Below are positions 40,599 to 60,198 of a DNA stretch of 64,000 nucleotides, one piece after another. The notes under the pieces were generated by a model, which saw only the letters and a program-made list of their open reading frames with translations, ran no database searches and had not been told where the DNA came from. The position numbers were made by a program, and so were the translations under genes. This DNA comes from Desulfitobacterium metallireducens DSM 15288. Lineage in GTDB: Bacteria; Bacillota; Desulfitobacteriia; Desulfitobacteriales; Desulfitobacteriaceae. Each line of letters starts with the position of its first letter. The stretch's first letter is position 1. The stretch is from assembly GCF_000231405.2 (NCBI RefSeq), contig NZ_CP007032.1, forward strand, positions 744,001 to 808,000. Direction: 5' to 3'.

Positions 40599-40622
40599 GA
40601 AATAAAAAAAGTTAATCAAGTT

Positions 40623-42492: not shown

Positions 42493-44270
42493 AAGGACTC
42501 ATGTATTTGATTCGACAGATGGTTCCTTATCGAGGACGTATTCTGCTGGCACTTTTGTTAAGCGCGTTAACGATTTCTAGTCATATTGGCTTGATGGCAA
42601 CTGCAGCGTATCTTTTGGCCAGAGCCGCTCTTCACCCTCCCGTCATGGATTTGATGGTGACCATCGTAGGTGTACGTTTTTTCGGAATTTCCCGAGCTGT
42701 TCTCCGCTATTTAGAGCGTTATGTTTCCCATGATGTGACTTTTCGTATCCTAAGCCGGATTAGAGTCAGCGTCTATGAAGCGATTGAGCCTCTAGCCCCA
42801 GCGCGACTGATCTATTTTAAAAGTGGCGATTTACTCAGCCGAATTGTCAGTGATGTGGAAATTCAAAAAGATCTGTATTTACGGGTACTCGCTCCCCCCT
42901 TGGTTGCGGTTCTCGTATTATTAGGGTTTGGATTATTCTTAGCCCCCTTTGATCAGAGGTTACCTTTTATCCTTGCCGCATTCTTTCTTCTTGGTGGGGC
43001 CGGGATTCCTTTGGGTATTAAAGCGCTTGGTCAAAGTTCAGGAGAGCGTAAGGTTAAAGAAAAAGCACGGCTTCAGGTTCAGGCGCTGGATCTTATCATA
43101 GGAATGACTGAATTGATCTCTTTTGGACAAGAAGAGGTATATCTTGAAAAAATTAAAACAACTCAGAAAGGATATAGTTCAGCGCAAAGAAGTTATGCTC
43201 GTTTATCAGGACTATCTGGAGCGACTTTGGGAGTGGTCTCTAATTTAGGGATGTGGATGGTTCTTGTTTTGGGAATTACCCTTGTCGGACAAGGAAAACT
43301 TGGAGGTATCTATCTTGGAATGCTAGCGTTAGGCGTTCTCAGCAGCTTTGAATCGATTGAGGCACTTCCCATGTCCTTACAAAAGCTTGAGGAAAATCGA
43401 GCAGCAGCGGATCGTTTGTGGGAGTTAAAGGAATCAAAGCCAGAAGTTGAGGAGACATCTAAGTCTTCGGTTGCTTCAGTTCGTTCGGAGGAGATTCCCT
43501 TTCCTTTACTAGCTTCACCCGCTTTGGAAATTTCTCATCTTAGTTTCCAGTATGAACAAAGTGAAACTTATGGTTTAAAGGATATTTCCTTTGAAGTACC
43601 TCTGAGGGGAAAAGTCGGAATCGTGGGTCCCAGTGGAGCAGGAAAGAGCAGTCTCGTTCATCTTTTCCTGAGATTTTGGGATTATCATGAGGGGAGTATT
43701 AAACTGGGAGGTAAAGAACTTCACTCCCTGAATTCGGAGGAAGTGCGTCAGTTTTTTGGGGTAGTGACTCAGAAAACACATCTTTTCAATGCTACAGTTA
43801 AGGAAAACCTATTGTTAGCTAAGCCTCAGTCAACGGATGAAGAATTATTTGAAGCCTGTCGGAGGGCAAAGATTCACGACTTCATTCTTTCCTTGCCGCA
43901 AGGGTATGAAAGCCAAATTGGAGAAGAAGGTCTTAAACTCTCAGGTGGGCAGCGTCAACGGCTGGCCATAGCTCGAGTTATTTTAAAAAACGCCCCAATT
44001 CTGATTTTAGATGAAGCCACAACAGGGCTTGATCCAGTAACAGAACGGGACGTCATACAAGAAATCTTTGACTTAATGAAGGACCGGACAGTCTTAGTCA
44101 TTTCACATCATTTACCCATCATGCAAAATCTGGATAAAGTTCTGGTATTTAATGAAGGAAGAATTCTGGAACGGGGAAGCCATCAGGAACTTTTGAGCGC
44201 AGGAACGCTTTACACACAATTATGGGAAAGAGCCGATATATTTAGATCTTTTTACGGTTTTAGGAAATAA
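42489..44270 (+). CDS. cydC: Thiol reductant ABC exporter subunit CydC
   Basis: A 593-residue half-transporter. LALLLSALTISSHIGLMATAAYLLARAALHP at the first helix and VGVRFFGISRAVLRYLERYVSHD are CydC landmarks. The ATPase has GPSGAGKSSLVHLFLRF, LSGGQRQRLAIARVIL and LILDEATTGLD. It forms a heterodimer with CydD. A Ser/Glu-rich linker (residues ~320-345) separates the two domains. A hairpin terminator follows. Confidence 0.93.
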   Translation: MKGLMYLIRQMVPYRGRILLALLLSALTISSHIGLMATAAYLLARAALHPPVMDLMVTIVGVRFFGISRAVLRYLERYVSHDVTFRILSRIRVSVYEAIEPLAPARLIYFKSGDLLSRIVSDVEIQKDLYLRVLAPPLVAVLVLLGFGLFLAPFDQRLPFILAAFFLLGGAGIPLGIKALGQSSGERKVKEKARLQVQALDLIIGMTELISFGQEEVYLEKIKTTQKGYSSAQRSYARLSGLSGATLGVVSNLGMWMVLVLGITLVGQGKLGGIYLGMLALGVLSSFESIEALPMSLQKLEENRAAADRLWELKESKPEVEETSKSSVASVRSEEIPFPLLASPALEISHLSFQYEQSETYGLKDISFEVPLRGKVGIVGPSGAGKSSLVHLFLRFWDYHEGSIKLGGKELHSLNSEEVRQFFGVVTQKTHLFNATVKENLLLAKPQSTDEELFEACRRAKIHDFILSLPQGYESQIGEEGLKLSGGQRQRLAIARVILKNAPILILDEATTGLDPVTERDVIQEIFDLMKDRTVLVISHHLPIMQNLDKVLVFNEGRILERGSHQELLSAGTLYTQLWERADIFRSFYGFRK

Positions 44271-46330: not shown

Positions 46331-46531
46331 ATGAAAAATAAACGAATGAAGATTGCCCGGATTGAATGCGATATGAAACAAGAAGATTTAGCAAAAGCAG
46401 TGGGGGTTACACGCCAAACGATTGGAATGATTGAATCGGGCAATTATAATCCTTCATTAAATCTGTGTATTTCAATATGTAGAGTGCTGGGAAAAACATT
46501 AGATGAATTGTTTTGGGAGGTAACGCCATGA
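46331..46531 (+). CDS. Small XRE-family regulator (YgzD-like)
   Basis: A 66-residue stand-alone Cro/CI HTH: MKIARIECDMKQEDLAKAVGVTRQTIGMIESGNYNPSLNLC, ending CRVLGKTLDELFW. This minimal type usually heads an operon with a small membrane protein, as here (46624). ATG at 46331 follows AAGGTGGACATTT; the frame is open further upstream without a site. Its stop overlaps an ATGA that opens an 8-codon frame (MREKKKTI) in the position of the usual second gene, probably a decayed start of a former partner. Confidence 0.88.
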   Translation: MKNKRMKIARIECDMKQEDLAKAVGVTRQTIGMIESGNYNPSLNLCISICRVLGKTLDELFWEVTP

Positions 46532-46623
46532 GGGAAAAGAAGAAAACCATATAGAGTAGACCGAAAAGCTCTTTGATATGATGAATGACTTCGAAATTTC
46601 AATATATTGGGGGTAGTATAATT

Positions 46624-47070
46624 ATGAATGATGAAAGAGTTGAACAGGCGAAAAATAAAATATGGAGTGAACTCGCAATAATAATTTTTTGTGGTGTAGC
46701 TCTATCATTTTTAGTTAAAACTTTAGTCTTTAATATGAATCTAACAGAATGTATTACGGAATATTTAATTTTGATATTTTCCCCACTATATCAGTTTATC
46801 AGAATGCATATGATGAAGATAAGTATTTACAGTACGCATGTGAATAGGCAATCGCTAAAGAACCTGATTATAGCAATTGTAATCGTTTTGGTTGCCTCAG
46901 CGGTGTCTATTTTTAAAAAGATGAAGGAATCAGCAGTCTATGACTGGCAGAGGCCAGCGGTTTTTTTGTTTATATTTTTGGTATCATTTATATCACTCTC
47001 TTTTATCACCAATAAATATAACCGGAATAGAGGTCATGAGTACGAAAAAGAGTTTGATGATGATATATAA
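46624..47070 (+). CDS. Small membrane protein, DUF6773-like
   Basis: A 148-residue protein with four hydrophobic segments (about residues 18-38, 45-62, 78-98, 112-132) and charged ends (NDERVEQAKNKIWSE; a C-terminal acidic EKEFDDDI). The layout matches DUF6773-type membrane proteins that follow small XRE regulators in Firmicutes. Function unknown. ATG at 46624 follows GGGGGTAGTATAATT. It lies 92 bases after the regulator. Confidence 0.7.
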   Translation: MNDERVEQAKNKIWSELAIIIFCGVALSFLVKTLVFNMNLTECITEYLILIFSPLYQFIRMHMMKISIYSTHVNRQSLKNLIIAIVIVLVASAVSIFKKMKESAVYDWQRPAVFLFIFLVSFISLSFITNKYNRNRGHEYEKEFDDDI

Positions 47071-47103
47071 AGTACACCCCAGTTTTCCCAATATCACAAA
47101 ATA

Positions 47104-47142
47104 AAAGGAACAATATCCTAAAATCTAGGATGTTGTTCCTTT
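47104..47142. terminator. Bidirectional terminator
   Basis: AAAGGAACAATATCCTA / TAGGATGTTGTTCCTTT, 17-base arms with one mismatch, between convergent genes. Confidence 0.85.
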
Positions 47143-47145
47143 ACC

Positions 47146-47337
47146 CTATTTTTCGATGCTAATCGCACCTACGGGGCAATTATTACAGGCTTCTTGTACC
47201 GATTCCGTATCAGTTTCTGGTACTGGATTCATAAAGACACTTGCCAATCCGTCATCATTCATTTGAAAAACACTGGGGCAAATGGATGAACAGAGTCCAC
47301 AACCAATACATACCCCTTTATCCACTTTTGCTGTCAT
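47146..47337 (-). CDS. Ferredoxin, single [4Fe-4S] type
   Basis: A 63-residue ferredoxin. CIGCGLCSSICPS near residue 10 gives three cluster cysteines plus a fourth before Pro, and CNNCPVGAI near residue 51 gives the distal Cys-Pro ligand. One cluster with an extra disulfide pair is the usual reading of this spacing. It is a low-potential cytoplasmic electron carrier; the partner is not visible. ATG follows AAAGGAGGTTCTCGTA. Confidence 0.93.
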   Translation of the reverse strand: MTAKVDKGVCIGCGLCSSICPSVFQMNDDGLASVFMNPVPETDTESVQEACNNCPVGAISIEK

Positions 47338-47552
47338 TACGAGAACCTCCTTTAAGCGTTTTGCTCTTTTACTAAATTCATTATAATTTATTTTTTAGAG
47401 TAATTCCTTGATTAAAATCACACTTTAAATATGATGTGGAAACTCTATTCCTTTATCAACATGCAAGAAGGAATCTTGCTTCACTTTGTCTAATTTAATG
47501 ATGATATAGAGTCGTTATCAAAGTCTTAATTCTAAGTTTAGGAGTGAAGGGA

Positions 47553-48428
47553 ATGGCAATATCACCGAACACCGTGATTGGTTTTGTTGGAACTGGAGTT
47601 ATGGGCAGAAGCATGGCGAAAAACTTGATGAAAGCGGGATATCGTCTGAATGTCTATAACCGAACAAAATCGAGCGCTCAAGAACTGATTGAGCTTGGCG
47701 CAATTTGGAAAAATACAGTGGCTGAGCTTGCTGAAGCAAGTCAACTTGTGATTAGTATGGTAGGCTATCCTAAGGATGTTGAAGAAGTTTATTTTGGTGA
47801 AGGTGGGTTACTCGCTCATGCTAAAGAGGGAAGCTATTTAGTCGATATGACAACATCCAGTCCGGTGTTAGCTAAGGAACTCTCCATAGAAGGAAAGAAA
47901 AAAAGCATTCATGTTTTAGATGCACCCGTTTCAGGCGGAGATATCGGAGCAAGAGATGCCAAACTCGTGATTATGGTCGGTGGAGAAGCGGAAGATTTTA
48001 ACGCAGTTAAACCTGTTTTTGAAGTGATAGGAAATAATATCATTCTGCAAGGAACTGCAGGCTCTGGTCAATATACGAAGATGTGTAACCAAATTACGAT
48101 TGCTTCGAACATGATTGGTGTTGCAGAAGCAATGGCTTATGCTCAAAAATCGGGGCTCGATCCGATGCGCGTTTTAGAAAGTATCGGTGGAGGTGCAGCC
48201 GGCAGTTGGTCTCTATCTAATCTGGGTCCTAAGATGATAGCTGGGAATTATGCTCCAGGGTTCTACGTTAAACATATTATTAAAGACATTAAGATCGCCA
48301 TAGATTCAGCCCAAGAAATGGGTCTAAAGACACCGGGACTTGACTTAGCCAAGTCACTTTATGAAAAACTTGCGGCTGAAGGAGAAGAAGATAGCGGGAC
48401 GCAAGTTTTGATTAAGTTGTATCAGTAA
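47553..48428 (+). CDS. NAD(P)-dependent 3-hydroxyisobutyrate dehydrogenase / tartronate semialdehyde reductase-type enzyme
   Basis: A 291-residue beta-hydroxyacid dehydrogenase: Rossmann motif IGFVGTGVMGRSMAKNLMKAG, NRTKSSAQE, substrate loop DAPVSGGDIGARDAKLVIMVGG, catalytic Lys in GSGQYTKMCNQI and a late GFYVKHIIKDIKIA. The family oxidises or reduces short hydroxy-acids; the substrate cannot be read from sequence alone. ATG at 47553 follows TAGGAGTGAAGGGA. Monocistronic, followed by a terminator. Confidence 0.92.
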   Translation: MAISPNTVIGFVGTGVMGRSMAKNLMKAGYRLNVYNRTKSSAQELIELGAIWKNTVAELAEASQLVISMVGYPKDVEEVYFGEGGLLAHAKEGSYLVDMTTSSPVLAKELSIEGKKKSIHVLDAPVSGGDIGARDAKLVIMVGGEAEDFNAVKPVFEVIGNNIILQGTAGSGQYTKMCNQITIASNMIGVAEAMAYAQKSGLDPMRVLESIGGGAAGSWSLSNLGPKMIAGNYAPGFYVKHIIKDIKIAIDSAQEMGLKTPGLDLAKSLYEKLAAEGEEDSGTQVLIKLYQ

Positions 48429-48468
48429 ATCGTAAATTGGGACATATAGTATAGGACGGTTCAACAAG

Positions 48469-48512
48469 AAAGGTTATTACACTTTACAGATGTAGAGTGT
48501 GATAACCTTTTT
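48469..48512 (+). terminator. Terminator after the dehydrogenase gene
   Basis: AAAGGTTATTACACT and AGTGTGATAACCTTT arms followed by TTGTCTTT; the leftward gene at 48527 can use it as well. Confidence 0.8.
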
Positions 48513-48526
48513 GTCTTTGGTTACAT

Positions 48527-49087
48527 CTATAATCCAATACGGTGAAGTAAGAAAATGCCGAACTTTTTAGCCAAAGGCAGAGCTACTCTTTTAGCTAGAG
48601 GAAGTCCGACTTTTTTAGCTAGGGGAAGCGCAACGTTTTGGACTAAAGGGGGGCCTATGCGACGGACGAGCGGAGGACCAATACGGCGTGCGATGGGGGG
48701 ACCAAATTCCTTCATCAACGCAGGGCCGACCTCACGAAAGAGGAGATAACTTTGCTCTTTTAAGGAGCTCGAGCCTTCCGTCAGAGGAAGTGCTTTTTTT
48801 GTGGGAAGTAGTGATGATTGAGGATTTAATAAGGACTCATCTTTTGAAGAAGATCCAGACAAAGCGCTTTGAGATGTGGATAAGGTCGGATTCGAGGGTG
48901 TTGGTTGTAGTGATTGAGAAGTTGGAAGGTTAGTCTTAGTTGAGGGAAGTTGCTGAGTTATAGGGGAAATAGATGAAGGGACTAAAGGGGGCTTTGAGTA
49001 GGGTGAGGAATTGAGCGGTCGAGAGTAATTCCGCGGTTGGGTGAAAGAATTTGTATTTGAACGGTAAGGTGCCGGAAAGGGTCGCAT
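48527..49087 (-). CDS. Octapeptide-repeat cationic protein with Ser/Pro-rich N-terminus
   Basis: A 186-residue protein. Residues 1-~110 are low complexity, rich in Ser, Pro, Thr and Asn. The last ~70 residues are about eight octapeptides of the form G-P-P-L-x-R-R-I (GPPIARRI, GPPLVRRI, GPPLVQNV, ALPLAKKV, GLPLAKRV, ALPLAKKF, GIFLLHRI), giving a cationic amphipathic array. No signal peptide or known domain. ATG at 49087 follows AAAGGAGGGAATTCCA. It may be a spore-coat or membrane-surface protein (some YqfQ-like coat proteins have similar composition), but I do not recognise the family. Confidence 0.65.
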   Translation of the reverse strand: MRPFPAPYRSNTNSFTQPRNYSRPLNSSPYSKPPLVPSSISPITQQLPSTKTNLPTSQSLQPTPSNPTLSTSQSALSGSSSKDESLLNPQSSLLPTKKALPLTEGSSSLKEQSYLLFREVGPALMKEFGPPIARRIGPPLVRRIGPPLVQNVALPLAKKVGLPLAKRVALPLAKKFGIFLLHRIGL

Positions 49088-49296
49088 TGGAATTCCCTCC
49101 TTTTTTAGGAAGACCTTTAATGCACAATATTCAAATGTCATGGAATATGTTACCAACTCGAATAACCCGAGTAGCCCTAGTTATCCCAGCAATACCAGTA
49201 ATATACTAATGAAAGCATGTCTTGGATGCTATATGATTAACATGTTGATTGCATTTTAGCAATCCGCTAATACATATCAAGGGGAGAAATACTTAG

Positions 49297-51501
49297 ATGT
49301 ACAAATTAAAAACCAGAATGTTCACTGGTGTTCTTGCAGCGTCCTTAACCTTAGGAACAGTTTTTCCATACGCTGTTCTCGCTTCCGACCCGACAGTCCC
49401 TGCACTTGGAACTTCGGTTGAACGCTTATTTGGAGCGACTCGGTATGAAACTGCAGCCCAAGTTGCTTTACAAGGATGGAAAAGTGGGGATACCGATACA
49501 GCTATTTTAGCCCCGGGCATGGAGGAAAACTTAGTGGATGCTTTAACAGCAGCACCCTTAGCAAAATCCCTTAATGCGCCTATTCTCCTTACGGAAGGAA
49601 ATCTAATTCCTGAGGCAACTGTGAAAACTTTAGAAGATTTAAAAATTAAAAAGGTTTATACAGTCAGTGGTGTGATTGGTGAAGGTGTTAAAAATCAACT
49701 TGCTAAAATCAATGACGGAATCGAAGTTGTAGCTGAACTGGGTGGAGTAGATCGTTTTGCTACAGCAACGAATATTGCGAAGCAACTTAAGAACGTTTCA
49801 GGTATCATGATGACGACTGCTTACACTTATGCTGATGCACTTTCAGTGGCCTCCATTGCAGCCACAAAAAATATGCCGATTCTTCTGGCTGATGGGGATA
49901 CCATTTCTACAGTTGAAGCCAATTATTTAGAAGATGTAAAGGATCAAATCACGGAGAGTTATGTTCTTGGGGGTAAAACCGTAGTGGGTTCAAGTATTCT
50001 TGAAAACCTTCCGGGTACCGTAAAGGAGCGAATTGCAGGAAGTGATCGTTTCGAGACAAACCGCGATGTCCTTGAGAAGTTTAGTGATTTGCAATATAAC
50101 AAAGTGTATATTGCTAATGGACAAGATGAGCACTTAGTGGATGCTTTAGTGGCTGCGCCTCTAGCCGCTAAATCTAATTCTCCAATCGTTCTTGCAGATT
50201 CCACGCTGAATGCAGCTACGGAAGCTTTTCTGCAACCCAAAATGACCGGGGGTAACCTGATCGCTCTAGGCGGACAAACCGTTGTTAAGGATGAAGTTTT
50301 GAGCTACAATTATGTCTTACCACAGGATTTTGGGGTTATGACAACCTCTGGGGTTAACGGCTATAGCGTAGGCTTTGGTTTTAATGGGTTTAAAACAAGC
50401 GATGTTAAAAATATCGAAGTAAGCCTCTATAAGGGCGATACCCTTTTGGCTACGAATACAAGCACCAATCAACTTTTTGCAAATCTCCCTGAAGAAACTC
50501 AACTTTCCACGCCTTTTAACATAGATGGTAACTTTACAAATGATGGTTATTGGAATTATGGGACCTGGAATGGTACAATCCTTGATGTTCCTACCAAAGC
50601 AGTGATTAAGGTCACAACTGAGGACAATGATGTTTATACTGTAACCAATGCCAACTTAAGTGGTGATCCTTCAACTCTGAATGCTGAGGCGCTTAACCAT
50701 GTTAAACCCGAAGACTTCGGAGTGATGCAATTATCAGGAGTGAATGGCTATAATGTTGGATTTTCCTTAGTTGATGGTAAAAAAGCTTACGATGTCAAGA
50801 CCATTAAAGTCAGCCTTTACAAAACGACCGATGGCGAAGATACGCTTTTAGCAACCAATACTTCAACTGAAAAACTCTTACGTCTAAATACAAATCAACT
50901 TTCTAGCCCTTTTAACATCAATGGAACCTTTGATAGCGAAAGTGATGGGTACTGGAATTATAGTGGGTTTGCTGGGAGCATCGGGGATGTTCCGAGTAAG
51001 GCGGTCATTAAAGTTACGTATAATGATGGTAAGACGTATACAGTTCAAAATGCGGAATTATCCGGTGATCCTGAGCTCCTTGCTGCACCGAGTATTGTCA
51101 CTGACTTAAGCGATAAAGCAACAACCGGTGTAACCCAAGATTTCAGCGTAACGACTTCACCTAATAGCTATGCTGCTAACCTCGAAGCAGATAAAAAACC
51201 CGTTATTGTTAAAGTCACTTTAACAGAGGGTTCTAAGGACAATGTTGCCCTTCAGTATTACGATACTACGGGAAAAGCCTTTATCGACTGGGCACTTAAC
51301 GAAGACCAAGCTGCGTTTTACGGTCCGGAAGCAGGGTTCCCTTTTGCTGCAGCAACCAGTGACTTCAAAGTGACTTTCAACAAAGCAGGCAATTATAGCT
51401 ACAAATTGGAAGTCTTGACGGTAAAAACTGATGCAGAAGATAGCCAAGTCTTAGCTTCTTATGAAGGACAAGTTGTCGTTACCGATCCTGCTGTAGAGTA
51501 A
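49297..51501 (+). CDS. Secreted CW_binding_2 protein with two internal duplicated modules
   Basis: A 734-residue surface protein. The signal peptide is MYKLKTRMFTGVLAASLTLG…VLA. Residues ~40-345 hold three CW_binding_2 (PF04122) repeats (RLFGATRYETAAQVA, VDRFATATNIAKQL, IAGSDRFETNRDVL). Two closely similar ~125-residue modules follow, each with EDFGVM/QDFGVM, SGVNGYxVGF, SLYKxxDTLLATNTST, LSxPFNIxGxF and DVPxKAVIKVT; a further beta-rich C-terminal domain (~605-734) ends the protein. It is probably exported and wall-bound. ATG follows GGGGAGAAATACTTAG. It shares its N-terminal architecture with the gene at 18942. Confidence 0.88.
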   Translation: MYKLKTRMFTGVLAASLTLGTVFPYAVLASDPTVPALGTSVERLFGATRYETAAQVALQGWKSGDTDTAILAPGMEENLVDALTAAPLAKSLNAPILLTEGNLIPEATVKTLEDLKIKKVYTVSGVIGEGVKNQLAKINDGIEVVAELGGVDRFATATNIAKQLKNVSGIMMTTAYTYADALSVASIAATKNMPILLADGDTISTVEANYLEDVKDQITESYVLGGKTVVGSSILENLPGTVKERIAGSDRFETNRDVLEKFSDLQYNKVYIANGQDEHLVDALVAAPLAAKSNSPIVLADSTLNAATEAFLQPKMTGGNLIALGGQTVVKDEVLSYNYVLPQDFGVMTTSGVNGYSVGFGFNGFKTSDVKNIEVSLYKGDTLLATNTSTNQLFANLPEETQLSTPFNIDGNFTNDGYWNYGTWNGTILDVPTKAVIKVTTEDNDVYTVTNANLSGDPSTLNAEALNHVKPEDFGVMQLSGVNGYNVGFSLVDGKKAYDVKTIKVSLYKTTDGEDTLLATNTSTEKLLRLNTNQLSSPFNINGTFDSESDGYWNYSGFAGSIGDVPSKAVIKVTYNDGKTYTVQNAELSGDPELLAAPSIVTDLSDKATTGVTQDFSVTTSPNSYAANLEADKKPVIVKVTLTEGSKDNVALQYYDTTGKAFIDWALNEDQAAFYGPEAGFPFAAATSDFKVTFNKAGNYSYKLEVLTVKTDAEDSQVLASYEGQVVVTDPAVE

Positions 51502-51524
51502 AATCTAAAATTATCAAGTGAAAA

Positions 51525-51576
51525 AAACGGGTGCATTTTCGTTTAAGCAATTTGACGAGGTGCACCCGTTTCTTTT
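51525..51576 (+). terminator. Terminator after the wall-binding gene
   Basis: Perfect 11-bp stem AAACGGGTGCA / TGCACCCGTTT with a 25-base loop, followed by CTTTT. Confidence 0.8.
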
Positions 51577-51584
51577 GGATAGCA

Positions 51585-51616
51585 AGGAGGTTGTCTTCAA
51601 ATCGAAGACACCTCTT
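51585..51616 (+). other. Second hairpin in tandem
   Basis: AGGAGGTTGTCTTC and GAAGACACCTCTTT arms, followed by CGCG rather than a U-run. It may be a backup terminator or part of the leader of the next operon; the promoter of that operon must lie in 51617-51740. Confidence 0.45.
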
Positions 51617-51748
51617 TCGCGTTTTAGCTTGTTTAGTTTAATTTAATTAGTTCTAGTTCGTTTTAACTTGATAGGATTAGAAGTAGTTTGTTATACTGGT
51701 GTAAGGTTAGGCTGAATTAGGGGTTGATTCTGAATATTTGAGGAGAGG

Positions 51749-52345
51749 ATGATTCATATTTTATTAAAAAGAGTACATTTAATATCCTTACTTACGGTAT
51801 TGCTTTGTTTCATAGGAGCTTCAACTGTCATAGCTGGAGATGGAAATGGAACAGGAACTGGAAGTGGGGGTGGAAACCAAAACCCTTTAACTTTGGAGTC
51901 TTCAGAGCCAGCCGACGGTCAAAAAGATGTAAATTTGCCTGCTGAAATTAAATTAACATTTAGTAAAAATGTTGTTAACATGACGGTAAAGGATAAGAAT
52001 GAAAAAGCCTTTACACTTAGCTCCTCTGAGGGGAGTAAGATACCTATTGAGGTTATCATGGCAGATGACCAGATAGAACCCGAGAAGAACCAAGAAGTAA
52101 TCTTAAAACCTTTGCAGGATTTAAAGCCCGGAACAGCTTACAAAGTGACGATAGCGCCTGAGCTGAAATCCAAGAGCGGAGTTTCTCTAGAAAAAGAAAC
52201 GATTATCAATTTCGTGACGATGGGTACAAATCCATCCCCTGGAGAGAAGACAAATCAGGGTAATTCTTCTCAAGGAATTCTTATTGGAATTGTTGTGATT
52301 CTAGGCCTAGCCATCGGTTTTACTTTATATAAAAGAAAACATTAA
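51749..52345 (+). CDS. Membrane-anchored bacterial Ig-like (Big_5) protein
   Basis: A 198-residue protein: signal peptide to about residue 33, Gly-rich spacer, then a Big_5-type Ig domain (SSEPADGQKDVNLPAEIKLTFSKNV to INFVTMG, residues ~50-155), a short linker and a C-terminal helix GILIGIVVILGLAIGFTLY followed by KRKH. It should be held in the membrane with the domain outside. It lies 14 bases before the FecCD permease, so it may be part of the importer's surface assembly, an inference from position. The ATG lies close to GAGGAGAGG. Confidence 0.75.
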   Translation: MIHILLKRVHLISLLTVLLCFIGASTVIAGDGNGTGTGSGGGNQNPLTLESSEPADGQKDVNLPAEIKLTFSKNVVNMTVKDKNEKAFTLSSSEGSKIPIEVIMADDQIEPEKNQEVILKPLQDLKPGTAYKVTIAPELKSKSGVSLEKETIINFVTMGTNPSPGEKTNQGNSSQGILIGIVVILGLAIGFTLYKRKH

Positions 52346-52359
52346 GAGGAGTTACGGGC

Positions 52360-53367
52360 ATGAAGAGAAAGATCATCACCACTGTATTACTCATCGTTTG
52401 TCCTTTAGGCTTTGTATTTCTTTCTCTTTTTATAGGCAGGTACCCCATATCGTTTGTCTCCGTGATTAACCTTTTATGGTCGAAGCTCATCTCTGCGCCA
52501 AGTCATTTACCGGATATTTATAATACCGTTGTTTGGGAGATTCGCATGCCAAGGGCTATCTTAGGAGCATTAGTCGGCGGGGCTTTAGCTATGAGCGGGA
52601 CAGCTTTTCAGGGACTGTTTCGCAATCCTCTCGTGAGTTCAGGAATTTTAGGGGTGAGTTCAGGCGCCGGATTTGGAGCGGCTTTGGCGATTTTACTCTT
52701 CAATACACGTGGTACGATTTACTTTTTTGCGCTTAGCTTTGCTTTGTTGGCTGTACTTCTAAGCTATTTAATCGGAAGAGCTTACAAAACAGCGCCGACC
52801 ATTATGTTGGTACTCGGTGGCACCATTGTTTCCTCAGCTTTTTCAGCTTTAATCTCATTCATAAAATATGTTGCCGATCCTTATGATAAGCTCCCAGCTA
52901 TTGTGTTTTGGTTGATGGGAAGCTTAGCCTCTGCCAATCTTCAGGACGTTTGGATTTCGGGAATTCCCATGTTGATTGGGATGGCTGGCTTATGGGCCCT
53001 CCGGTGGCGTATTAATGTCCTTTCAATGGGAGATCGGGAAGCCCGTTCACTTGGAATTAATATAACTCTGAATAAAGGATTGGTCGTTATATTTGCTACA
53101 CTTGCGACTGCGGGAGCCGTTTCAGTGAGTGGGACAATCGGTTGGGTGGGTCTAATTATCCCTCATATTGGACGGATGCTAGTGGGTAACGATAACTCGG
53201 TATTAATGCCCGCAAGTTTCTCGCTCGGGGCGAGTTTTTTAATTTTGATTGACTTAACGGGGAGAATGCTAACGGGTTCAGAAATCCCGCTGAGTATTTT
53301 AACCGCCTTAATAGGTGCTCCTTTCTTTGTTTACTTATTAAAAATGACCAAAGGAAAGGGGTGGTGA
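52360..53367 (+). CDS. FecCD/BtuC-type ABC transporter permease
   Basis: A 335-residue permease with about ten helices. VWEIRMPRAILGALVGGALAMSGTAFQGLFRNPLVSS near residue 60 and SGTIGWVGLIIPHIGRMLVG late are diagnostic of the FecCD family. Substrates in the family are siderophore-iron, heme, cobalamin, or molybdate/tungstate. ATG follows GAGGAGTTACGGGC. It overlaps or abuts the ATPase gene. Confidence 0.92.
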   Translation: MKRKIITTVLLIVCPLGFVFLSLFIGRYPISFVSVINLLWSKLISAPSHLPDIYNTVVWEIRMPRAILGALVGGALAMSGTAFQGLFRNPLVSSGILGVSSGAGFGAALAILLFNTRGTIYFFALSFALLAVLLSYLIGRAYKTAPTIMLVLGGTIVSSAFSALISFIKYVADPYDKLPAIVFWLMGSLASANLQDVWISGIPMLIGMAGLWALRWRINVLSMGDREARSLGINITLNKGLVVIFATLATAGAVSVSGTIGWVGLIIPHIGRMLVGNDNSVLMPASFSLGASFLILIDLTGRMLTGSEIPLSILTALIGAPFFVYLLKMTKGKGW

Positions 53368-53372
53368 GGGAA

Positions 53373-54179
53373 ATGTCCTTGATTGAGGTAAGAAATATCT
53401 CTTTTGGGTATGATCATCAGGCTCTTTTTCAAAACGTAGGCTTTCAGGTTGATTCAGGAGAGATTCTCTGTCTTATCGGGCCCAATGGTTGTGGGAAGAC
53501 GACACTACTCGATTGCCTTCTGGGAACGATAAAACCCCGAACCGGTCAGATTTTTTTTAGAGGAGAAGAGATCAATACATTTCGCCCTAGTGATATTGCT
53601 AAGCATATCGCCTATGTTCCTCAAGATCATGAGAAAAGCTTCCCCTATTCGGTACTGGACATTGTACTTATGGGAAGGACTCCTTATACCGGGATGTTCT
53701 CTTCTCCATCCTTAGAAGATAGGCGTATTGCTGAAGAGGCTCTCGATTTGTTAGGCCTAAAAAGATTTAAAGATAGGCCCTATACTCAATTAAGTGGCGG
53801 TGAGGGGCAACTTGTGATGCTTGCTCGAGCCCTAGCACAGAAGACTCCGGTTATTATCATGGATGAGCCAACAGCACACTTGGATTTTAAGCATGAACTG
53901 CTGATCATGGAAACCCTTGTTCGCTTAGTCCGGGAGACCGGATTGTCGATCATTATGGCGACCCACTTTCCTAACCATGCTTTCTATTTCGAAAACAATA
54001 ATATAGCCACCTCTGTGGCTTTGATGAATGAAAAAACGTTAACGGCTGTAGGCCCACCTCGAGATATTCTATCTGAAGAAAATATTAAAGCAGTTTATAA
54101 TATCAATGCCAAAATTGTTTCTTGTGCGATTGGGGATAACGATCTTAAACAAATCATTCCACTCAATACATTGAGCTAG
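53373..54179 (+). CDS. ABC transporter ATP-binding protein (FepC/BtuD-like)
   Basis: A 268-residue ATPase: Walker A GPNGCGKTTLLDCLLG, Q-loop YVPQDHEKSFPYSVLDIVLMGRTPY, signature LSGGEGQLVMLARALAQ, Walker B VIIMDEPTAHLD and H-loop ATHFPNHAF. The long D-I-V-L-M-G-R-T-P-Y segment is usual for FecCDE-type importers. The frame is open from two GTGs (53361, 53364) before the ATG at 53373; GGTGAGGG supports the ATG but not decisively. Confidence 0.92.
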   Translation: MSLIEVRNISFGYDHQALFQNVGFQVDSGEILCLIGPNGCGKTTLLDCLLGTIKPRTGQIFFRGEEINTFRPSDIAKHIAYVPQDHEKSFPYSVLDIVLMGRTPYTGMFSSPSLEDRRIAEEALDLLGLKRFKDRPYTQLSGGEGQLVMLARALAQKTPVIIMDEPTAHLDFKHELLIMETLVRLVRETGLSIIMATHFPNHAFYFENNNIATSVALMNEKTLTAVGPPRDILSEENIKAVYNINAKIVSCAIGDNDLKQIIPLNTLS

Positions 54180-54211
54180 ACGTGCTTACGTCTGGGAAAG
54201 GTAGTTTCGTT

Positions 54212-55318
54212 GTGGATAAAGAGAAAAAACGCGCGCTGGTTATCAGTCTTCTTATCCTGGCTGTCGTTAGTCTTTTTCTCGGATTATGGAGAATGAAGAC
54301 AATAGATGGAAAATCAGAACAAGCCAAGGTAACTCAGGAGACTATTACTGTTACTGATTCCATAGGTAGGCAGGTTGTCATACCCGCTAAGGTGGAGAGA
54401 ATTGCCTGTTTGTATGCCTTTTCAGGACATGTGCTAACGATGTTGGGAAAAAGTTCAGAAATCGTGGCTGTTGTTGATGGGTTAAAGCGAGATGTATTAC
54501 TCACTGATCTAGCTCCAGATATAAAGAACGCCCGAGTCCCTGTTTCCTCAGGTGCGATTAATATTGAAGAACTATTGAATACTCGGCCAGATATTGTTTT
54601 TATTAGTAGCGATACTGCTCAGAATGAAGGGGAAATCGAGAAACTGCGCAAAAGTAAAATCCCCTATCTTGTGGTCGATTATCGAAATATTTCTGAGCAA
54701 CAATTCGCAATTCGTATGATTGGTCAGGCTGTGGGGGCAGAGGATAGAGCGCTAAGCTACAATGAGTATTATCAATCCTGTGTCGAGCGTGTTCAAGAGA
54801 AGGTCAAAGATATCCCTCAGAAAGATCGAGTAAAAGTGTATCACTCAATTAATGAAGCGACGAGAACTGATGTCGTGGATACTTTACCCGCAGATTGGCT
54901 AAATATCGTTGGGGCGAACAATGTTTCAGTAGGTGAAAGCCTCAGAGTTGTCGAAGGCAATAAATATATTGCGAGTCTTGAACAAATTTTGTTATGGAAT
55001 CCTCAGGTTATTCTTGTTAATGAGGCAGGTGTCGATGACTATATCAGGGAAAATCCGCAATGGTCCAATATCAATGCGGTGAGCAACGGAAAGGTTTATC
55101 AAATGCCCAATGGTGTTTCACGGTGGGGCCATCCGGGGTCACTAGAAACGCCTTTAGCAATTTTATGGACGGCAAAGACACTCTATCCAGAGAGATTCTC
55201 TGACTTGAACCTGGAAAAAGAAGTGCGTGAATTTTATAAGGAATTCTTTAATTATCCACTGACAGATGAAACCGTTACCCAAGTATTGAATGGAAAAGGG
55301 ATGAGGATACCTAAGTAA
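54212..55318 (+). CDS. FecB/BtuF-type substrate-binding protein, membrane-anchored
   Basis: A 368-residue periplasmic-binding-type protein. Residues ~6-27 form an N-terminal membrane helix without a lipobox, then ITVTDSIGRQVVIPAKVERIACLYAFSGHVL, NIEELLNTRPDIVFISS and the second lobe with GVSRWGHPGSLETPLAILW. The last motif, with Trp-Gly-His-Pro, resembles the F420/metal-complex and molybdate/tungstate-like binders of anaerobes rather than classic siderophore binders, a weak indication. GTG at 54212 follows GGGAAAGG by ten bases; the frame is open from 54182. Confidence 0.88.
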   Translation: MDKEKKRALVISLLILAVVSLFLGLWRMKTIDGKSEQAKVTQETITVTDSIGRQVVIPAKVERIACLYAFSGHVLTMLGKSSEIVAVVDGLKRDVLLTDLAPDIKNARVPVSSGAINIEELLNTRPDIVFISSDTAQNEGEIEKLRKSKIPYLVVDYRNISEQQFAIRMIGQAVGAEDRALSYNEYYQSCVERVQEKVKDIPQKDRVKVYHSINEATRTDVVDTLPADWLNIVGANNVSVGESLRVVEGNKYIASLEQILLWNPQVILVNEAGVDDYIRENPQWSNINAVSNGKVYQMPNGVSRWGHPGSLETPLAILWTAKTLYPERFSDLNLEKEVREFYKEFFNYPLTDETVTQVLNGKGMRIPK

Positions 55319-55378
55319 AATATTAATTAAGTTTAGGGGATAATTGTTAAAATTCGAATAGAAAAAGGGGTCGGTAAG

Positions 55379-56125
55379 ATGAAAATCCTGGTATGCATTG
55401 ACGATACAGACAATCTTGAGAGTCGGGGAACAGGTGAGTTAGCCACAATATTGGGACAGGAAATTGAAGAACAAGGTTGGGGCAAGACCTTTGGAGTGAC
55501 ACGCCACCAGTTATTCGTTCATGAAGATATTCCTTACACCTCCCATAATAGTTCAATGTGTTTCGTGGCTGAAATGAAGGAGGAATATCTGAATCGCTTC
55601 ATCGATTTTGCGACTGATTTTTTAGTTCGTGAAAGTGCTGAAGGGTCTGATCCTGGGCTTTGTGTCCTTATTCCTGAGCGACTCACTCAAGGAGACGAGC
55701 TCATTGCCTTTGGACAAAAAGCGAAGAGAGCTATTTTAACGAAACAGGATGCTTATGAACTTGCTCAACATTTAGGGATACATCTTTCGGAACATGGTGG
55801 TACAGGGCAGGGAGTCATTGGTGCACTTGCTGGAGCAGCCCTTCGCCTTAGTGGCAATGATGGGCGTTTTAAAGGGAAACTTAAAATTAAAAGTGACACC
55901 GATGTTATTGCTGTTAGGGATATTCTAGAGCAGACAATTGTCGATATGGTGAAAAGCTTAGAGGGAACGATTTTAGAAGCGGATGATTTAGTCAAGTTAG
56001 GAGACACCCTTAAAGCAATATTGCTTGAAGGAAAATGTGTCCTGCCAGTTACGCTTATAGAGGCGCCAGCAAGGGAAGGGGTGAGGTGGCAAACCTGCAC
56101 AAAACAGCAGGTTAAAAAATTCTAA
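55379..56125 (+). CDS. TiaS-like protein (tRNA-Ile2 agmatinylcytidine synthetase N-domain homologue)
   Basis: A 248-residue protein opening with KILVCIDDTDNLESRGTGELA, the IDDTD motif that in archaeal TiaS catalyses phosphorylation. GVTRHQLFVHEDIPYTSHNSSMC and SEHGGTGQGVIGALAGAALR also fit the family. TiaS itself is archaeal and larger, with OB and zinc domains missing here, so this bacterial stand-alone copy probably has another substrate. It lies 60 bases after the importer genes and 14 before a small Cys protein; the three-part neighbourhood suggests a common pathway I cannot name. ATG follows AGGGGTCGGTAAG loosely. Confidence 0.75.
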   Translation: MKILVCIDDTDNLESRGTGELATILGQEIEEQGWGKTFGVTRHQLFVHEDIPYTSHNSSMCFVAEMKEEYLNRFIDFATDFLVRESAEGSDPGLCVLIPERLTQGDELIAFGQKAKRAILTKQDAYELAQHLGIHLSEHGGTGQGVIGALAGAALRLSGNDGRFKGKLKIKSDTDVIAVRDILEQTIVDMVKSLEGTILEADDLVKLGDTLKAILLEGKCVLPVTLIEAPAREGVRWQTCTKQQVKKF

Positions 56126-56139
56126 GGAGGAGATAAGAA

Positions 56140-56343
56140 GTGTGGACGTTGAACTCAAAGGGAGAAAAAGAGTTCGTAGGTGGTAAAGAGGATTGGGAAG
56201 GAGCAGCAAAGGCTGCAGCAAACTGTCTTGTATTTAAAGAAGACGTAGAAGAGGAGCTAGTAGCGGATGAACTGCGGTCTTGTTATAATTGTCGTAACAG
56301 GCGTTGGACCAGCATGTCCTTTGTATGTTATGGTTCAAAATAA
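56140..56343 (+). CDS. Small Cys-rich-tail protein of unknown function (67 aa)
   Basis: A 67-residue soluble protein with a charged first half (KEDWEGAAKAAANCLVF, EDVEEELVADEL) and a C-terminal SCYNCRNRRWTSMSFVCY carrying C-x2-C and a third Cys, which could bind metal. The start is GTG at 56140 behind AAGGAGGAGATAAGAA. It follows the TiaS-like gene by 14 bases and ends in a perfect terminator, so it closes the importer operon. I do not recognise a family. Confidence 0.65.
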   Translation: MWTLNSKGEKEFVGGKEDWEGAAKAAANCLVFKEDVEEELVADELRSCYNCRNRRWTSMSFVCYGSK

Positions 56344-56384
56344 GCGAGGAGGCTATCCCGATTTTTACGGGATAGCCTCCTCGC
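56344..56384. terminator. Perfect 17-bp bidirectional terminator
   Basis: GCGAGGAGGCTATCCCG and its exact complement enclose ATTTTTA. It lies between convergent transcripts of the Cys-protein operon and glnN. Confidence 0.85.
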
Positions 56385-56403: not shown

Positions 56404-58494
56404 TTAAAGTTTAAAGAGCATTTCTGAATACGTTGGGAAAGGCCAAAGATTAGCATCAACAATTTCTTCAAGTTGATCAGCGACCTGACGAAGTTCTCCC
56501 ATCATAGTGAAGACGCTATCACGATAGTAGACCGCTTGTTCATATGCATCTGTTAAATCTTTAGCTTGAGTAGTAACGCTTTGTAAGTCGTTAATTTTTT
56601 GCTTAAGACCAGCCAGTAGGGAAGATGAATCTTTGAGAAGCTCAGTCTGAGCAGAAACTTCCGCTTCGGCGTAAGCCGTTTTTACCGTATTGATGGATTT
56701 TGCTAAAGTGGTTACATATTTAATCGCAGCTGGAAGAATTTGCTTTTGTGCCATATCAATCATGGTCAGTGCTTCAATATTGATCGATTTCGAATATTGC
56801 TCAAGATAGATTTCATAACGAGAATGTAATTCGGTACGATCTAATACCCCATGTTTCTCATAGATTGCAATATTTTTCTCAAGGAGTAGAGCTGGAACAG
56901 CGTCAACTGTAGAACGGAAATGAGGTAACCCACGGCGTTCAGCTTCTTCTACCCATTCCTCCGAATAACCGTTGCCATCGAAAAGAACTCGTGAGTGGTT
57001 AGTGGCAATTTCTTTTAGAAGTTTCCGCAATTCACCATGAAAATCTTCAGCTTTCTCTAAACGATCGGCGATCAAGGATAGCGTTTCAGCAACAATTAAA
57101 TTTAAGACCACGTTTGGACCGGATATCGAGAGCGAAGAGGGAACCATCCGGAATTCAAATTTATTACCTGTGAAGGCAAAGGGGGAGGTACGGTTACGGT
57201 CTGTAGAATCTTTGGGGAGAGAGGGCAGGGTGTTGACTCCAATTTCAAGCTGTCCGCCTTGAATCGAGCTCTTAGGTCCCCCATTTTGTAATTGCTTCAG
57301 AATATCGGAGAGTTGGTCACCTAGAAACATGGAGATAATGGCTGGAGGAGCTTCATTAGCGCCGAGACGGTGGTCATTTCCTGTGTTTGAGGCAGAAAGT
57401 CGAAGCAAATCAGCATGTTCGTCGACTGCTTTAATAATGGCACAGAGGAAGGTCAGGAACTGGGCGTTTTGATGGGGGGTGCGGCCAGGTTCTAAAAGAT
57501 TAATGCCATCATCAGTGCTCATCGACCAGTTATTGTGTTTGCCTGAGCCATTGACCCCGGCAAACGGTTTTTCATGGAGTAAACAAACTAAATCATGACG
57601 AGTTGCAACTTTTTGCAGAGTTTCCATAACTTGCTGATTATGATCTGTAGCGATATTCGTGGATTCAAAAATCGGAGCAATTTCATATTGGCCTGGTGCG
57701 ACTTCTTTGTGTTGTGTTTTGGCGGGAATCCCGAGTTTCCATAACTCAACATTGACGTCTTGCATGTAAGCGGTAACCCGTTCATTGATACTCCCAAAAT
57801 AATGATCTTCCATCTCTTGGCCTTTAGGAGGCATGGCGCCGAATAGCGTACGTCCCGTGAGCAATAAGTCCGTTCTTTGCATATAGAACTTTTTATCAAT
57901 CAAAAAGTATTCTTGCTCTGCTCCAACAGTTGCAATGACACGCTTACTCTCTGTGTTACCAAAAAGCTGTAGGATTCGAAGCGCCTGTTTGTTGAGGGTC
58001 TCCATAGAACGTAATAAAGGCGTTTTTCGGTCGAGGGCTTCGCCAGTGTAGGAACAAAAGGCGGTCGGAATACAAAGGGTGACGACGCCAGCATCTTCAT
58101 GCAAGAAGGCAGGAGAAGTACAATCCCAAGCAGTGTAACCTCGTGCTTCGAAGGTTGAACGAATTCCGCCATTAGGGAAAGAAGATGCATCAGGCTCACC
58201 TTTAATGAGTTCTTTTCCGGAAAACTCCATAATAACATTGCCGTCAGCTGTAGGAGAAATAAAGGCATCATGCTTTTCTGCGGTGACCCCAGTCATCGGT
58301 TGAAACCAGTGCGTAAAGTGGGTTGCACCTTTCTCAAGGGCCCAATCTTTCATGGCATTGGCGACGACATCAGCAACTGCCGGCTCCAAAGGAGTTCCTT
58401 CATCAATTGTTTTCCTTAATGCTCTGTACGTATTTTTAGGCAGGCGTTCTTTCATTACTGAGTTGTTAAAAACATTAGCTCCGAAGATATCCAT
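56404..58494 (-). CDS. glnN: Type III glutamine synthetase
   Basis: A 696-residue [28 protein letters not shown] at the start, [43 protein letters not shown] and [14 protein letters not shown] with metal- and ATP-binding residues. It condenses glutamate and ammonia. The length (about 700 residues) is normal for the class. ATG follows AAAGGAAGGGATAAGAA. The leader carries a terminator-like hairpin (58557-58604), suggesting attenuation. Confidence 0.95.
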
Positions 58495-58693: not shown

Positions 58694-59893
58694 TTAATTC
58701 TGTTTATGTTGGGTATTTGAGACTTCAGTTGCTTTTCTTTGAATTCTAAGCAACTTACTGGCAATAAAAGATAAAAATACAGATCCAGCACTAAAGAGTG
58801 CACCCATTTTAGCAGCTCCTTGAAGACTTGGATCAGTAAAGGCTACACCAGCTACAAATAAGGCAACGGTAAGTCCCATTGATGCGACCAGCCCAGCAAC
58901 AAAAAGGTCTTTATGATTCATTCCTTTAGGTAGCGGAAAACCGATTAAAGCGGAAAGTGAACCCATTGTGAAGACCCCTAATGTTTTGCCAATGACTAAG
59001 GCAAAAAATACTAACCAAGTCACTGTACTGATTCCCGAGAACTGAACACCTGCATTCGTCAAACCAAATAATAAGAGCCCAAAATCGACGAAGATTTTCC
59101 AATCGTGTTCAAATTCCTTTAAAGTTGAAGGGTCTGGATCTTCGGGATCGTCTTCAAACAGACCGGCCTGCTCTTTTGTAGGATGCGGCAAAAATGGAAC
59201 AATAAAGACTAAGGCAAGCGATGAATGGATACCGGTTAAATAAAGACCGATCCAACTCAATGTTCCTCCGAAGATAATATATGGCCAGTAGTTTTTAACA
59301 TTCTTTTTTCTCAAAAAGTAAGCAATTAACATTCCAGTAAGCGTAAACAATAGCCACACAGGAGCTATTGGATTTAACGGATCAGGATAAAAGAGGGTAA
59401 TGATTAAAAGACCAATTCCATCATCTGCGATCGCTAATAATAATAAAAAGGAAACAGCCGGATGATATGCTCCGAAGACAAGTCTGGCAACTAGCCAGGC
59501 TAAAGCGATGTCAGTCGCAGTAGGAATTCCCCACCCTTTGAGAAAATCGGGGCTACCCATAAAGTGATTAAGAACTAGATAAATAACGACTGGACCAATA
59601 ACTCCACCAAAGGTTGCCATAATAGGGCTGATAGCCCGTTTAAGGGGATTTAAGTCCCCACCGGGTAATAGACTTTGGGTGATTTCCACTGTCGCCATAG
59701 CGAAAAAGAAGACCATAAAAATATCATTGACAAAAAAGTGAAGTGAGAAATTACCGAATAATTTATTGTGAACAAAGTGATTGTAGCTTTCAGGTGTTAA
59801 ATTGGCCCAGATTAAAGCCATTATTACGCCTGCAATAAGGGGAATCGAAAATTCTTGTAAGAAATTAATCCTTTTCCTTGTTTGATCTGTCAC
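58694..59893 (-). CDS. nhaA: NhaA-family Na+/H+ antiporter
   Basis: A 399-residue protein with about eleven helices. VNDIFMVFFFAMATVEI, the ion-site GWGIPTATDIALAW with the paired aspartates region, LLALAIADDGIGLLII-like LLLAIADDGIGLL and GMGL-type ending motifs fit NhaA. It exchanges Na+ for H+ across the membrane. A GTG at 59893 (MTDQTRKRIN) follows AAGGAGGGAATTAACT; the frame is open 24 codons further up inside the leader terminator, so the GTG is the start. A c-di-GMP-I riboswitch and terminator precede it. Confidence 0.92.
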   Translation of the reverse strand: MTDQTRKRINFLQEFSIPLIAGVIMALIWANLTPESYNHFVHNKLFGNFSLHFFVNDIFMVFFFAMATVEITQSLLPGGDLNPLKRAISPIMATFGGVIGPVVIYLVLNHFMGSPDFLKGWGIPTATDIALAWLVARLVFGAYHPAVSFLLLLAIADDGIGLLIITLFYPDPLNPIAPVWLLFTLTGMLIAYFLRKKNVKNYWPYIIFGGTLSWIGLYLTGIHSSLALVFIVPFLPHPTKEQAGLFEDDPEDPDPSTLKEFEHDWKIFVDFGLLLFGLTNAGVQFSGISTVTWLVFFALVIGKTLGVFTMGSLSALIGFPLPKGMNHKDLFVAGLVASMGLTVALFVAGVAFTDPSLQGAAKMGALFSAGSVFLSFIASKLLRIQRKATEVSNTQHKQN

Positions 59894-59908
59894 AGTTAAT
59901 TCCCTCCT

Positions 59909-59951
59909 TAAAAAATAAAAGGAGAGCAGTCCTAAAAAGGAACCGCTCTCC
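59909..59951 (-). terminator. Riboswitch terminator upstream of nhaA
   Basis: Reading leftward GGAGAGCGGTTCC and GGACTGCTCTCC pair, followed by TTTTATTTTTT. It lies between the aptamer and the nhaA ribosome site. Confidence 0.88.
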
Positions 59952-59967
59952 CCTGAGAAGTTCAAAA

Positions 59968-60066
59968 AACTTGTAGCTTGGCGATCTTAGCTGATGTTTG
60001 CTCATGTAATCAACCGTAGACCCATAGCTTTAGCGTCCTTCGCTTTCACGAAGTTTACCCCAACAC
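59968..60066 (-). promoter_or_regulatory. Cyclic di-GMP-I (GEMM-I) riboswitch
   Basis: Reading leftward from 60066: GGGTAAACTTCG, a GAAA-type tetraloop hairpin (CTTCGTGAAAGCGAAG), then GGACGCTAAAGCTATGGGTC and a closing AGCTAAGATCGCCAAGC. Order and bases match the GEMM-I consensus (AAAC…GAAA…GACGCAAAGCC…GGG). It is followed by an intrinsic terminator and nhaA. GEMM-I variants can prefer cGAMP, so the exact ligand is open. Confidence 0.82.
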
Positions 60067-60198
60067 AATAAAAGATTATACAATTATTAGTATTCTACAA
60101 TAATCAGATTGCAGATGCAATTCTTTTTGGATAGTATTTGATTTTTCTACAGAAAATAAGCATGATTGTATTTTAACTTCGAGAAGGAGGGTTTCGCG

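Follow-up and report, generated by a model that had tools for sequence, protein, structure and literature searches.

A TiaS-like kinase-type protein encoded with a MolBCA-like importer in Desulfitobacterium metallireducens: a probable accessory tungsten acquisition system

TupABC, ModABC, and WtpABC are named as ATP-binding cassette (ABC) importers of tungstate and molybdate in a 2025 paper (PMC11980592), and MolBC-A, which imports molybdate with low affinity, has a binding protein, MolA, that binds both molybdate and tungstate (PMC4031551). On the side of regulation, the riboswitch of the molybdenum and tungsten cofactors (Moco/Tuco; Rfam family RF01055) was described by Regulski et al. (2008; PMC2408646), according to whom RNAs lacking stem P3 go with tungsten-cofactor genes; three such RNAs control an operon of S. 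wolfei with genes for molybdopterin synthesis, for transport, and of unknown function. A survey of riboswitch regulons includes the class 'Molybdenum & tungsten transporters' (PMC3766115), and the 2012 genome paper of Pelobacter carbinolicus suggested metal transport for TonB channels located near molybdopterin riboswitches (PMC3543383). In this work we describe a six-gene unit in a 64,000-nt stretch of Desulfitobacterium metallireducens DSM 15288 (genome G000 in our numbering, 3.18 Mb in one contig, NZ_CP007032.1; positions 744001–808000, hereafter the window), in which a MolBCA-like importer is encoded together with a 248-aa protein carrying an IDDTD motif (window 55379–56125), for which we use the working name TIA. 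We propose, with a probability of about 0.72, that the unit is an accessory system for the acquisition of tungsten, possibly also of molybdenum, in which TIA acts on the imported species.

The six-gene unit and its importer

A sequence-only reading of the window had placed six genes at 51749–56343 and had regarded them as one unit, possibly for the uptake and processing of an unknown metal complex or cofactor. All six were found there, and they are listed below with two flanking elements.

51749..52345, plus strand: Ig-like protein, secreted or membrane-anchored, 198 aa (Pfam Big_5, 1e-13, 52 bits; weak CopC, 1.8e-5)
52360..53367, plus strand: FecCD/BtuC-type permease (Pfam FecCD, 1.9e-84, 284 bits)
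53361..54179, plus strand: ABC ATPase of the importer (Pfam ABC_tran, 4.6e-33, 115 bits)
54182..55318, plus strand: MolA-like substrate-binding protein (SBP), membrane-tethered (Peripla_BP_2, 1.5e-24, 87 bits)
55379..56125, plus strand: TIA, 248 aa, with a predicted TiaS-like kinase-type domain (about residues 1–160) and a C-terminal beta-rich part (AlphaFold, Foldseek, VIA)
56140..56343, plus strand: four-Cys small protein, 67 aa (4 Cys invariant in 24/24 aligned sequences)
51668..51697, plus strand: TTGATA-18-TATACT, promoter-like, the second hexamer preceded by TG (consensus scan, 10 of 12)
56344..56384, unstranded: hairpin of 17 pairs, T-rich tail on the minus strand

The first two genes are 14 bp apart, the permease and ATPase genes overlap by 7 bp, and the gaps that follow measure 2, 60, and 14 bp. 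By eye, the Big_5 protein has a C-terminal transmembrane segment and the SBP an N-terminal hydrophobic anchor. The order Big_5–FecCD–ATPase–SBP–TIA was found in 8 of 20 loci of relatives (L036, L037, L039, L043, L044, L045, L049, and L051 in our locus numbering), where a Big_5 homolog holds the corresponding position; because homologs keep this order, it goes beyond chance, and the six genes are part of a conserved unit.

A FecCD-family permease, an ABC ATPase, and a Peripla_BP_2-family SBP encoded in one operon make up the layout of MolBCA, and the SBP points in the same direction. When it was searched against the PDB, HI_1472, which we take to be MolA, was the second of 25 matches (4.9e-30 with the single sequence, 4.6e-40 with the profile); the first, 4ovk, is uncharacterised, so that, among PDB entries of characterised function, HI_1472 is the closest relative, above the entries named as iron, nickel, or B12 binders. 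The genes of MolBCA in Haemophilus influenzae are presumably HI1470-1472. The scores of the permease (224.8 bits, cutoff 461) and of the ATPase (206.2 bits, cutoff 537) stay below the curated cutoffs for the vitamin B12 importer BtuCDF.

The ends of the unit are less distinctive. The promoter-like site upstream carries no weight, as shuffled sequences yield 21.3 (sd 5.0) such sites and the region itself 26. The perfect terminator ascribed to the end of the unit does exist as a 17-pair hairpin, but its T-rich tail (TTATTTTGAA) lies on the minus strand, the plus side reading ATTTGGCT, and the terminator scan listed it on the minus strand only, that is, for the convergent gene 56404–58494. The terminator belongs to this convergent neighbor at least as much as to the six-gene unit, which it could possibly serve as well.

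TIA, its four-Cys neighbor, and the importers beside them

The description of TIA as a TiaS-like protein is strongly supported by its predicted structure, whereas by sequence the relationship is distant and far under the family cutoffs. TIA scores 38.9 bits against the NCBIfam TiaS model (NF040849; curated cutoff 600) and 43.5 bits against methanogenesis marker 11 (TIGR03280; cutoff 255.8), and is thus assigned to neither family; both models are matched weakly by 42/42 TIA relatives (best E value for TiaS, 1.6e-13). The window protein has no Pfam family over its cutoff, and 24 of the 42 relatives match TiaS_TCKD of Pfam at E <0.01. In its AlphaFold model (pLDDT, the predicted local distance difference test score, 93), the N-terminal part (about residues 1–160) matches TiaS with a Foldseek value of 3.7e-11; in VIA, six TiaS rows reach Z 17–21 over 128–153 residues (the top one Z 21.1 over 152 residues), followed by rows with Z of about 8 or less. 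Residues 1–162 are the sole span present in at least one-fifth of the structure rows; the C-terminal part is barely covered in them. D8, D9, T10, D11, and T18 are invariant in the alignment of 42/42 relatives, T18 being aligned with position 18 of TiaS, presumably the threonine after which the kinase-type domain TCKD is named. According to the model, TIA carries this domain of TiaS with its motif intact. TiaS has in addition FLD, OB, and zinc-ribbon domains that bind tRNA.

Up to three TIA paralogs occur in tandem in Syntrophomonas-type genomes, one type of them lacking the T18 motif. Such copies, with IDD and no T18 motif, were found at L043:9109-9849, where the copy stands in tandem with intact ones, and similarly in L048, L053, and L042; judging from their sequences, it is possible that they are non-catalytic partners. 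L005 (G058:C105) has a broken copy, in which the match to TIA is confined to the N-terminal 73 residues; by eye, it sits after a molybdate/tungstate-type ABC ATPase and directly before a NifS-like piece.

The small protein encoded after TIA had been noted for a C-x2-C motif, which is present and turns out to be one pair of four cysteines conserved in 24/24 relatives. It has a confident AlphaFold model (pLDDT 93), no Pfam family in any of 24 members, and no PDB fold match at E <0.001. A four-Cys gene lies within 1.5 kb of TIA in 55 of 80 loci, and the two proteins are fused in two genomes (L036 and L050).

These 80 loci are the best of 334 relatives in a public genome collection with at least 334 candidate TIA stretches, and all locus counts below refer to them. 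To judge by their names, they come from Bacillota, Geobacter, Desulfuromonas, and other Deltaproteobacteria/Thermodesulfobacteriota, together with one Chloroflexi and one Burkholderiales assembly. An importer was found within 6 kb of TIA in 56/80 loci (37 with FecCD, 20 with the T component of an energy-coupling factor transporter, ECF-T, one of them with both) and, when only the 48 well-flanked loci were considered (with 5 kb or more of sequence upstream and 4 kb or more downstream), in 40/48 (26 FecCD, 15 ECF-T, one both). The last two genes of the unit do not, therefore, occur mostly without an importer, which would have spoken against the sequence-only reading. TonB receptors are present in 16/80 loci; L103 has the order TonB–FecCD–ATPase–SBP–TIA–Cys, and in Geobacter and Desulfuromonas types TIA stands beside ECF, TonB, and fn3-domain proteins.

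The association was also examined by genome. In a sample of 398 genomes of the phylum, TIA was detected in 26, including two weak or partial cases (G254, 48 aa, E 3e-4; G258, 74 aa with two stops). For TilS, FecCD identity, RF01055 copies per genome, and MoaC (as part of 63 genomes), the set of 26 lacks these two and includes G041 and G045 in their place. FecCD relatives with at least 54% identity exist in 20 of these 26 genomes and in 0 of 54 controls, which have AFOR_N and a TupA-like protein and no TIA and were chosen by hand, non-randomly; at E 1e-70 the figures are 24/26 and 4/54. For G382, what was counted is a single fragment of 204 residues with 69% identity. TIA is found beside two importer types that are unrelated to each other and, in diderms, beside TonB receptors; it is therefore probably not part of a transporter and probably acts in the cytoplasm on a cargo that these systems share.

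Tungsten-type riboswitches and molybdenum/tungsten genes

A set of 33 TIA loci, chosen by hand and not a random sample, was scanned with Rfam, and 18 of them contain RF01055. In 16 of these 18 (L060, L062, L063, L064, L066, L068, L070, L071, L072, L074, L079, L081, L085, L093, L104, and L114), it stands before the unit and on its strand, with tandem copies in five; both FecCD-type and ECF-type units are among those that it precedes. For L070, L085, and L114, this placement was taken from the coordinates of the TIA match, the TIA frame being masked by an overlapping predicted frame in some loci. A large surface-protein gene opens the unit before Big_5 in 7/16 (L062, L063, L064, L066, L079, L081, and L104), and in L071 there are 694 bp between the riboswitch and the first recognised gene. 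In the window, a SlpA-like surface protein with CWB2 domains is encoded directly upstream of the unit (49297–51501) and another SlpA-like protein at 18858–20510; in several relatives, it is other large surface proteins that open the riboswitch-controlled unit.

All 21 unit-side copies of the 16 loci lack P3, with 2 residues at the place where L083 has the 17 of this stem; covariance alignments cover the L083 copy and three of those without P3. Of 34 matches, 33 are 118–123 nt long, and that of L083 has 139 nt. This P3-containing, Moco-type RNA (L083:15393-15531) does not precede a TIA unit; its locus holds TIA, two TupA-like genes, a molybdenum storage protein (MoSto) gene, a MoeA-like gene, and a formate dehydrogenase-like operon. 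The P3 count strengthens tungsten over molybdenum, and not the step assigned to TIA. RF01055 is also more frequent in genomes with TIA, with a mean of 8.3 copies per genome in 26 against 2.0 in the 54 controls, as counted with stricter filters by which weak matches are lost. No cobalamin riboswitch reached the gathering score in the 33 loci, in which the other riboswitches were TPP (thiamine pyrophosphate; L108), sodium (L081), and c-di-GMP-I (cyclic di-GMP; L059). In L074, a further RF01055 copy (16141–16259) precedes a second binding-protein gene (16519–17556) with a FecCD gene further on, possibly another riboswitch-controlled importer.

The link to tungsto- or molybdo-enzymes suggested earlier was borne out at the genome level. 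AFOR_N, the domain of the AOR family (aldehyde ferredoxin oxidoreductases), is encoded in 26/26 TIA genomes of the phylum sample against 228/398 overall (Fisher 3e-7); in a second collection, 32 of its 37 TIA genomes have it. A family adjoining TIA matches the beta subunit of the molybdenum storage protein (2ogx, E 3e-72); this MoSto-type protein is present in 10/398 genomes, all 10 of which have TIA (Fisher 2e-13), and lies within ~40 kb of TIA in six of them (G074, G120, G192, G362, G422, and G433). TupA-like matches exist in 22/26 TIA genomes and in 188/398 overall. If G254 and G258 are removed, the numbers become 21/24 for TupA-like, 24/24 for AFOR_N, and 10/24 for MoSto. Of the 80 loci, 16 contain MoSto and 17 a TupA-like gene, when ~0.4–0.5 would be expected for a gene present about once in each genome of 3.2 Mb. 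Other genes are rarer (MoaA 3, MoaC 5, MogA 4, MoeA 6, MobB 3, AOR 4, and formate dehydrogenase 1). A family of small proteins (71–111 aa) is encoded directly before the storage protein gene (L068:6718-6984, L110:15055-15270, and L111:14415-14645); it is matched in 18/80 loci, and Pfam gave nothing for the single member that was scanned. The host genome has an AFOR gene and a TupA-like gene, the latter at 236–255 kb among neighbors that by eye resemble MoeA (two), MobB, and TupBC.

Elsewhere in the window, a cobalamin riboswitch is followed by cobalamin biosynthesis genes (23295–31812; CbiET, CobI/CbiL, and CobQ among those tested). A cytochrome bd subunit I-like gene (under cutoffs) precedes the CydD and CydC exporter genes (over cutoffs) at 38218–44270, and a c-di-GMP-I riboswitch (59969–60069, minus strand) lies directly upstream of a minus-strand gene (58694–59965) for what appears by eye to be an antiporter-like membrane protein. 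A short hairpin at 47098–47144 gives weak Rfam matches on both strands that are probably false.

Proposed role, alternatives, and comparison with known systems

The P3-lacking riboswitches, the co-occurrence with MoSto and AFOR_N, and the relatedness of the SBP to MolA indicate that the metal is tungsten, and possibly molybdenum. Of the uptake and processing that had been proposed for the unit, the uptake is thereby supported and its metal narrowed, while we infer the processing. In the proposed acquisition system, the Ig-like surface protein and the tethered SBP would hand a tungsten-containing species to the FecCD-type importer, whose place would be taken by an ECF transporter in some relatives; in diderms, a TonB receptor would serve at the outer membrane. 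Once the species is in the cytoplasm, TIA, partnered by the four-Cys protein, would act on it at the expense of ATP, and the metal could then go to storage in MoSto, to MoeA, and to tungstoenzymes. ATP-dependent chemistry is favored because the kinase-type fold has its motif intact, and the TonB receptors of diderms suggest that the cargo exceeds an oxyanion in size. The two importer types, the TonB receptors, and the kinase-type fold together favor an organic tungsten complex whose ligand is altered by TIA. The target of phosphorylation by TiaS is the C2 oxygen of cytidine; by analogy, the likeliest step, which we put forward only tentatively, would be that TIA phosphorylates an organic ligand at one of its oxygen donors and so makes it release the metal. 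The fuller version, in which tungsten bound to an organic metallophore would enter through TonB and FecCD or ECF and TIA would be the first kinase-type metal-release enzyme, phosphorylating the oxygen donors of the ligand and freeing the metal for storage and cofactor synthesis, is more doubtful still.

Several observations weigh against a tungsten acquisition system. In the window itself, no RF01055 was found at 46500–52500 with E up to 10, and the four copies of the host genome lie elsewhere and measure 128–135 nt, which is not the short form; the host also has no MoSto. RF01055 is absent from 15/33 scanned loci, no tested molybdenum or tungsten gene occurs in the available flanks of 52/80, and 8/48 well-flanked loci have neither FecCD nor ECF-T (L056, L067, L070, L097, L110, L120, L122, and L131). 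Likewise, G039 and G041 lack FecCD at E 1e-70, AFOR_N is missing in 5/37 TIA genomes of the second collection (two of them Paenibacillus), and no TupA-like match exceeds the family's curated cutoff in any of the 398 genomes. The SBP shares little similarity with MolA, and other PDB entries related to it carry the names of iron or nickel binders. Finally, the genome counts ignore kinship: eight of the ten MoSto genomes belong to one family, and the ten cases are not independent, the remaining ones being two other families that agree with the co-occurrence with TIA.

The main alternative, which we consider possible and yet clearly the less probable course, is that the importer brings in plain tungstate or molybdate as MolBCA does, with TIA and the Cys protein acting later, for instance in loading of a storage protein or insertion of the metal, and with no organic ligand involved. 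The ligands and low-affinity import of MolBC-A (PMC4031551) fit this, as do the MoSto and TupA-like neighbors of TIA. However, a TupA-like gene is already there in 22/26 TIA genomes, a TonB receptor, as seen in 16/80 loci, would be superfluous for a small oxyanion, and TIA can hardly be a general insertion factor because it is found in 26 genomes against 228 with AFOR_N. Import of the finished pterin cofactor or a precursor, to be processed by TIA, would be in keeping with a cofactor-sensing riboswitch upstream of the units of relatives and with the five loci having MoaC-like matches; it seems improbable, since MoaC is present in 59 of 63 TIA genomes (the misses being G324 and G339, which are 84–86% complete, G452, and G468), which rules out cofactor auxotrophy and makes the import of ready cofactor, one part of the earlier proposal, unnecessary, and since the link to metal storage points to the metal.

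A corrinoid, haem, or other tetrapyrrole could also be the cargo, the tungsten signals being coincidental, and this might be suspected from the best NCBIfam matches of the permease and ATPase (archaeal-type corrinoid transporters, at under half of the cutoff), from TonB-B12 as the best match, far under cutoff, of the single TonB receptor scanned, and from the cobalamin operon upstream in the window. We reject it as very improbable: no cobalamin riboswitch reaches the gathering score in the 33 scanned loci, 18 of which have RF01055 instead, the one in the window (at 23295) is far from the unit, and seven proteins of the cobalamin operon are unmatched in the 80 TIA loci at E 1e-4. That TIA is a tRNA-modifying TiaS enzyme standing in the operon by chance would agree with its kinase-type fold, but the probability is close to nil, as TilS is over its cutoff in 26/26 TIA genomes, the TiaS score of TIA is far too low, and up to three copies per genome follow importers and Tuco riboswitches.

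Tungsten is scarce and many anaerobes depend on it. If the proposed acquisition system is real, it would be a further tungsten route, with TonB and ECF versions, tungsten-cofactor riboswitches, and a dedicated enzyme, and would show how the metal is captured at trace levels; the TiaS-like family would thereby gain its first role outside tRNA, with a lead for methanogenesis marker 11, for which we know of no function. In the literature searched, we found no paper on marker 11, the titles of papers on TiaS-like proteins or TCKD were unrelated, and no title or start of an abstract on tungsten with metallophores, TonB, Geobacter, or ECF describes this system. Neither the combination of a TiaS-like enzyme with a four-Cys protein in a regulon of Tuco riboswitches nor a version of it with ECF was found in the parts of this literature covered; parts of the regulon may be listed in the regulon survey (PMC3766115) or in RegPrecise.

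Compared with known systems, the unit differs from TupABC, ModABC, and WtpABC, with which it shares the import of molybdenum or tungsten and, through TupA-like genes in 17/80 loci, its neighborhood, in that its SBP is of another family: it matches Peripla_BP_2 and neither PBP_like_2 nor SBP_bac_11, the types that the TupA-like neighbors do match. Like the regulon of Regulski et al. (2008; PMC2408646), the units of relatives have RF01055 upstream; TIA, FecCD, ECF, and TonB are unnamed in the parts of that paper covered here, and no TiaS-like protein is mentioned with the TonB channels in the covered parts of the P. carbinolicus paper (PMC3543383). With archaeal TiaS, the tRNA-Ile2 agmatidine synthetase, TIA has in common the N-terminal TCKD fold, the IDDTD motif, and T18, and with marker 11, which all 42 TIA relatives match weakly, the kinase-type region, but unlike TiaS it is bacterial, about half as long, encoded with metal importers, and far below the score cutoff. 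MolBCA is likewise a FecCD/BtuCD-like type II importer, with the nearest characterised relative of the SBP; to this the window adds a transmembrane-tethered SBP with a predicted ligand, the Big_5 surface protein, TIA, and the four-Cys protein, and its relatives add Tuco-type riboswitches and, in diderms, TonB. The importer is thus a variant of the known MolBCA-like kind, and the part that appears to be new, within the literature covered, is a TiaS-like enzyme with a four-Cys partner in a Tuco regulon.

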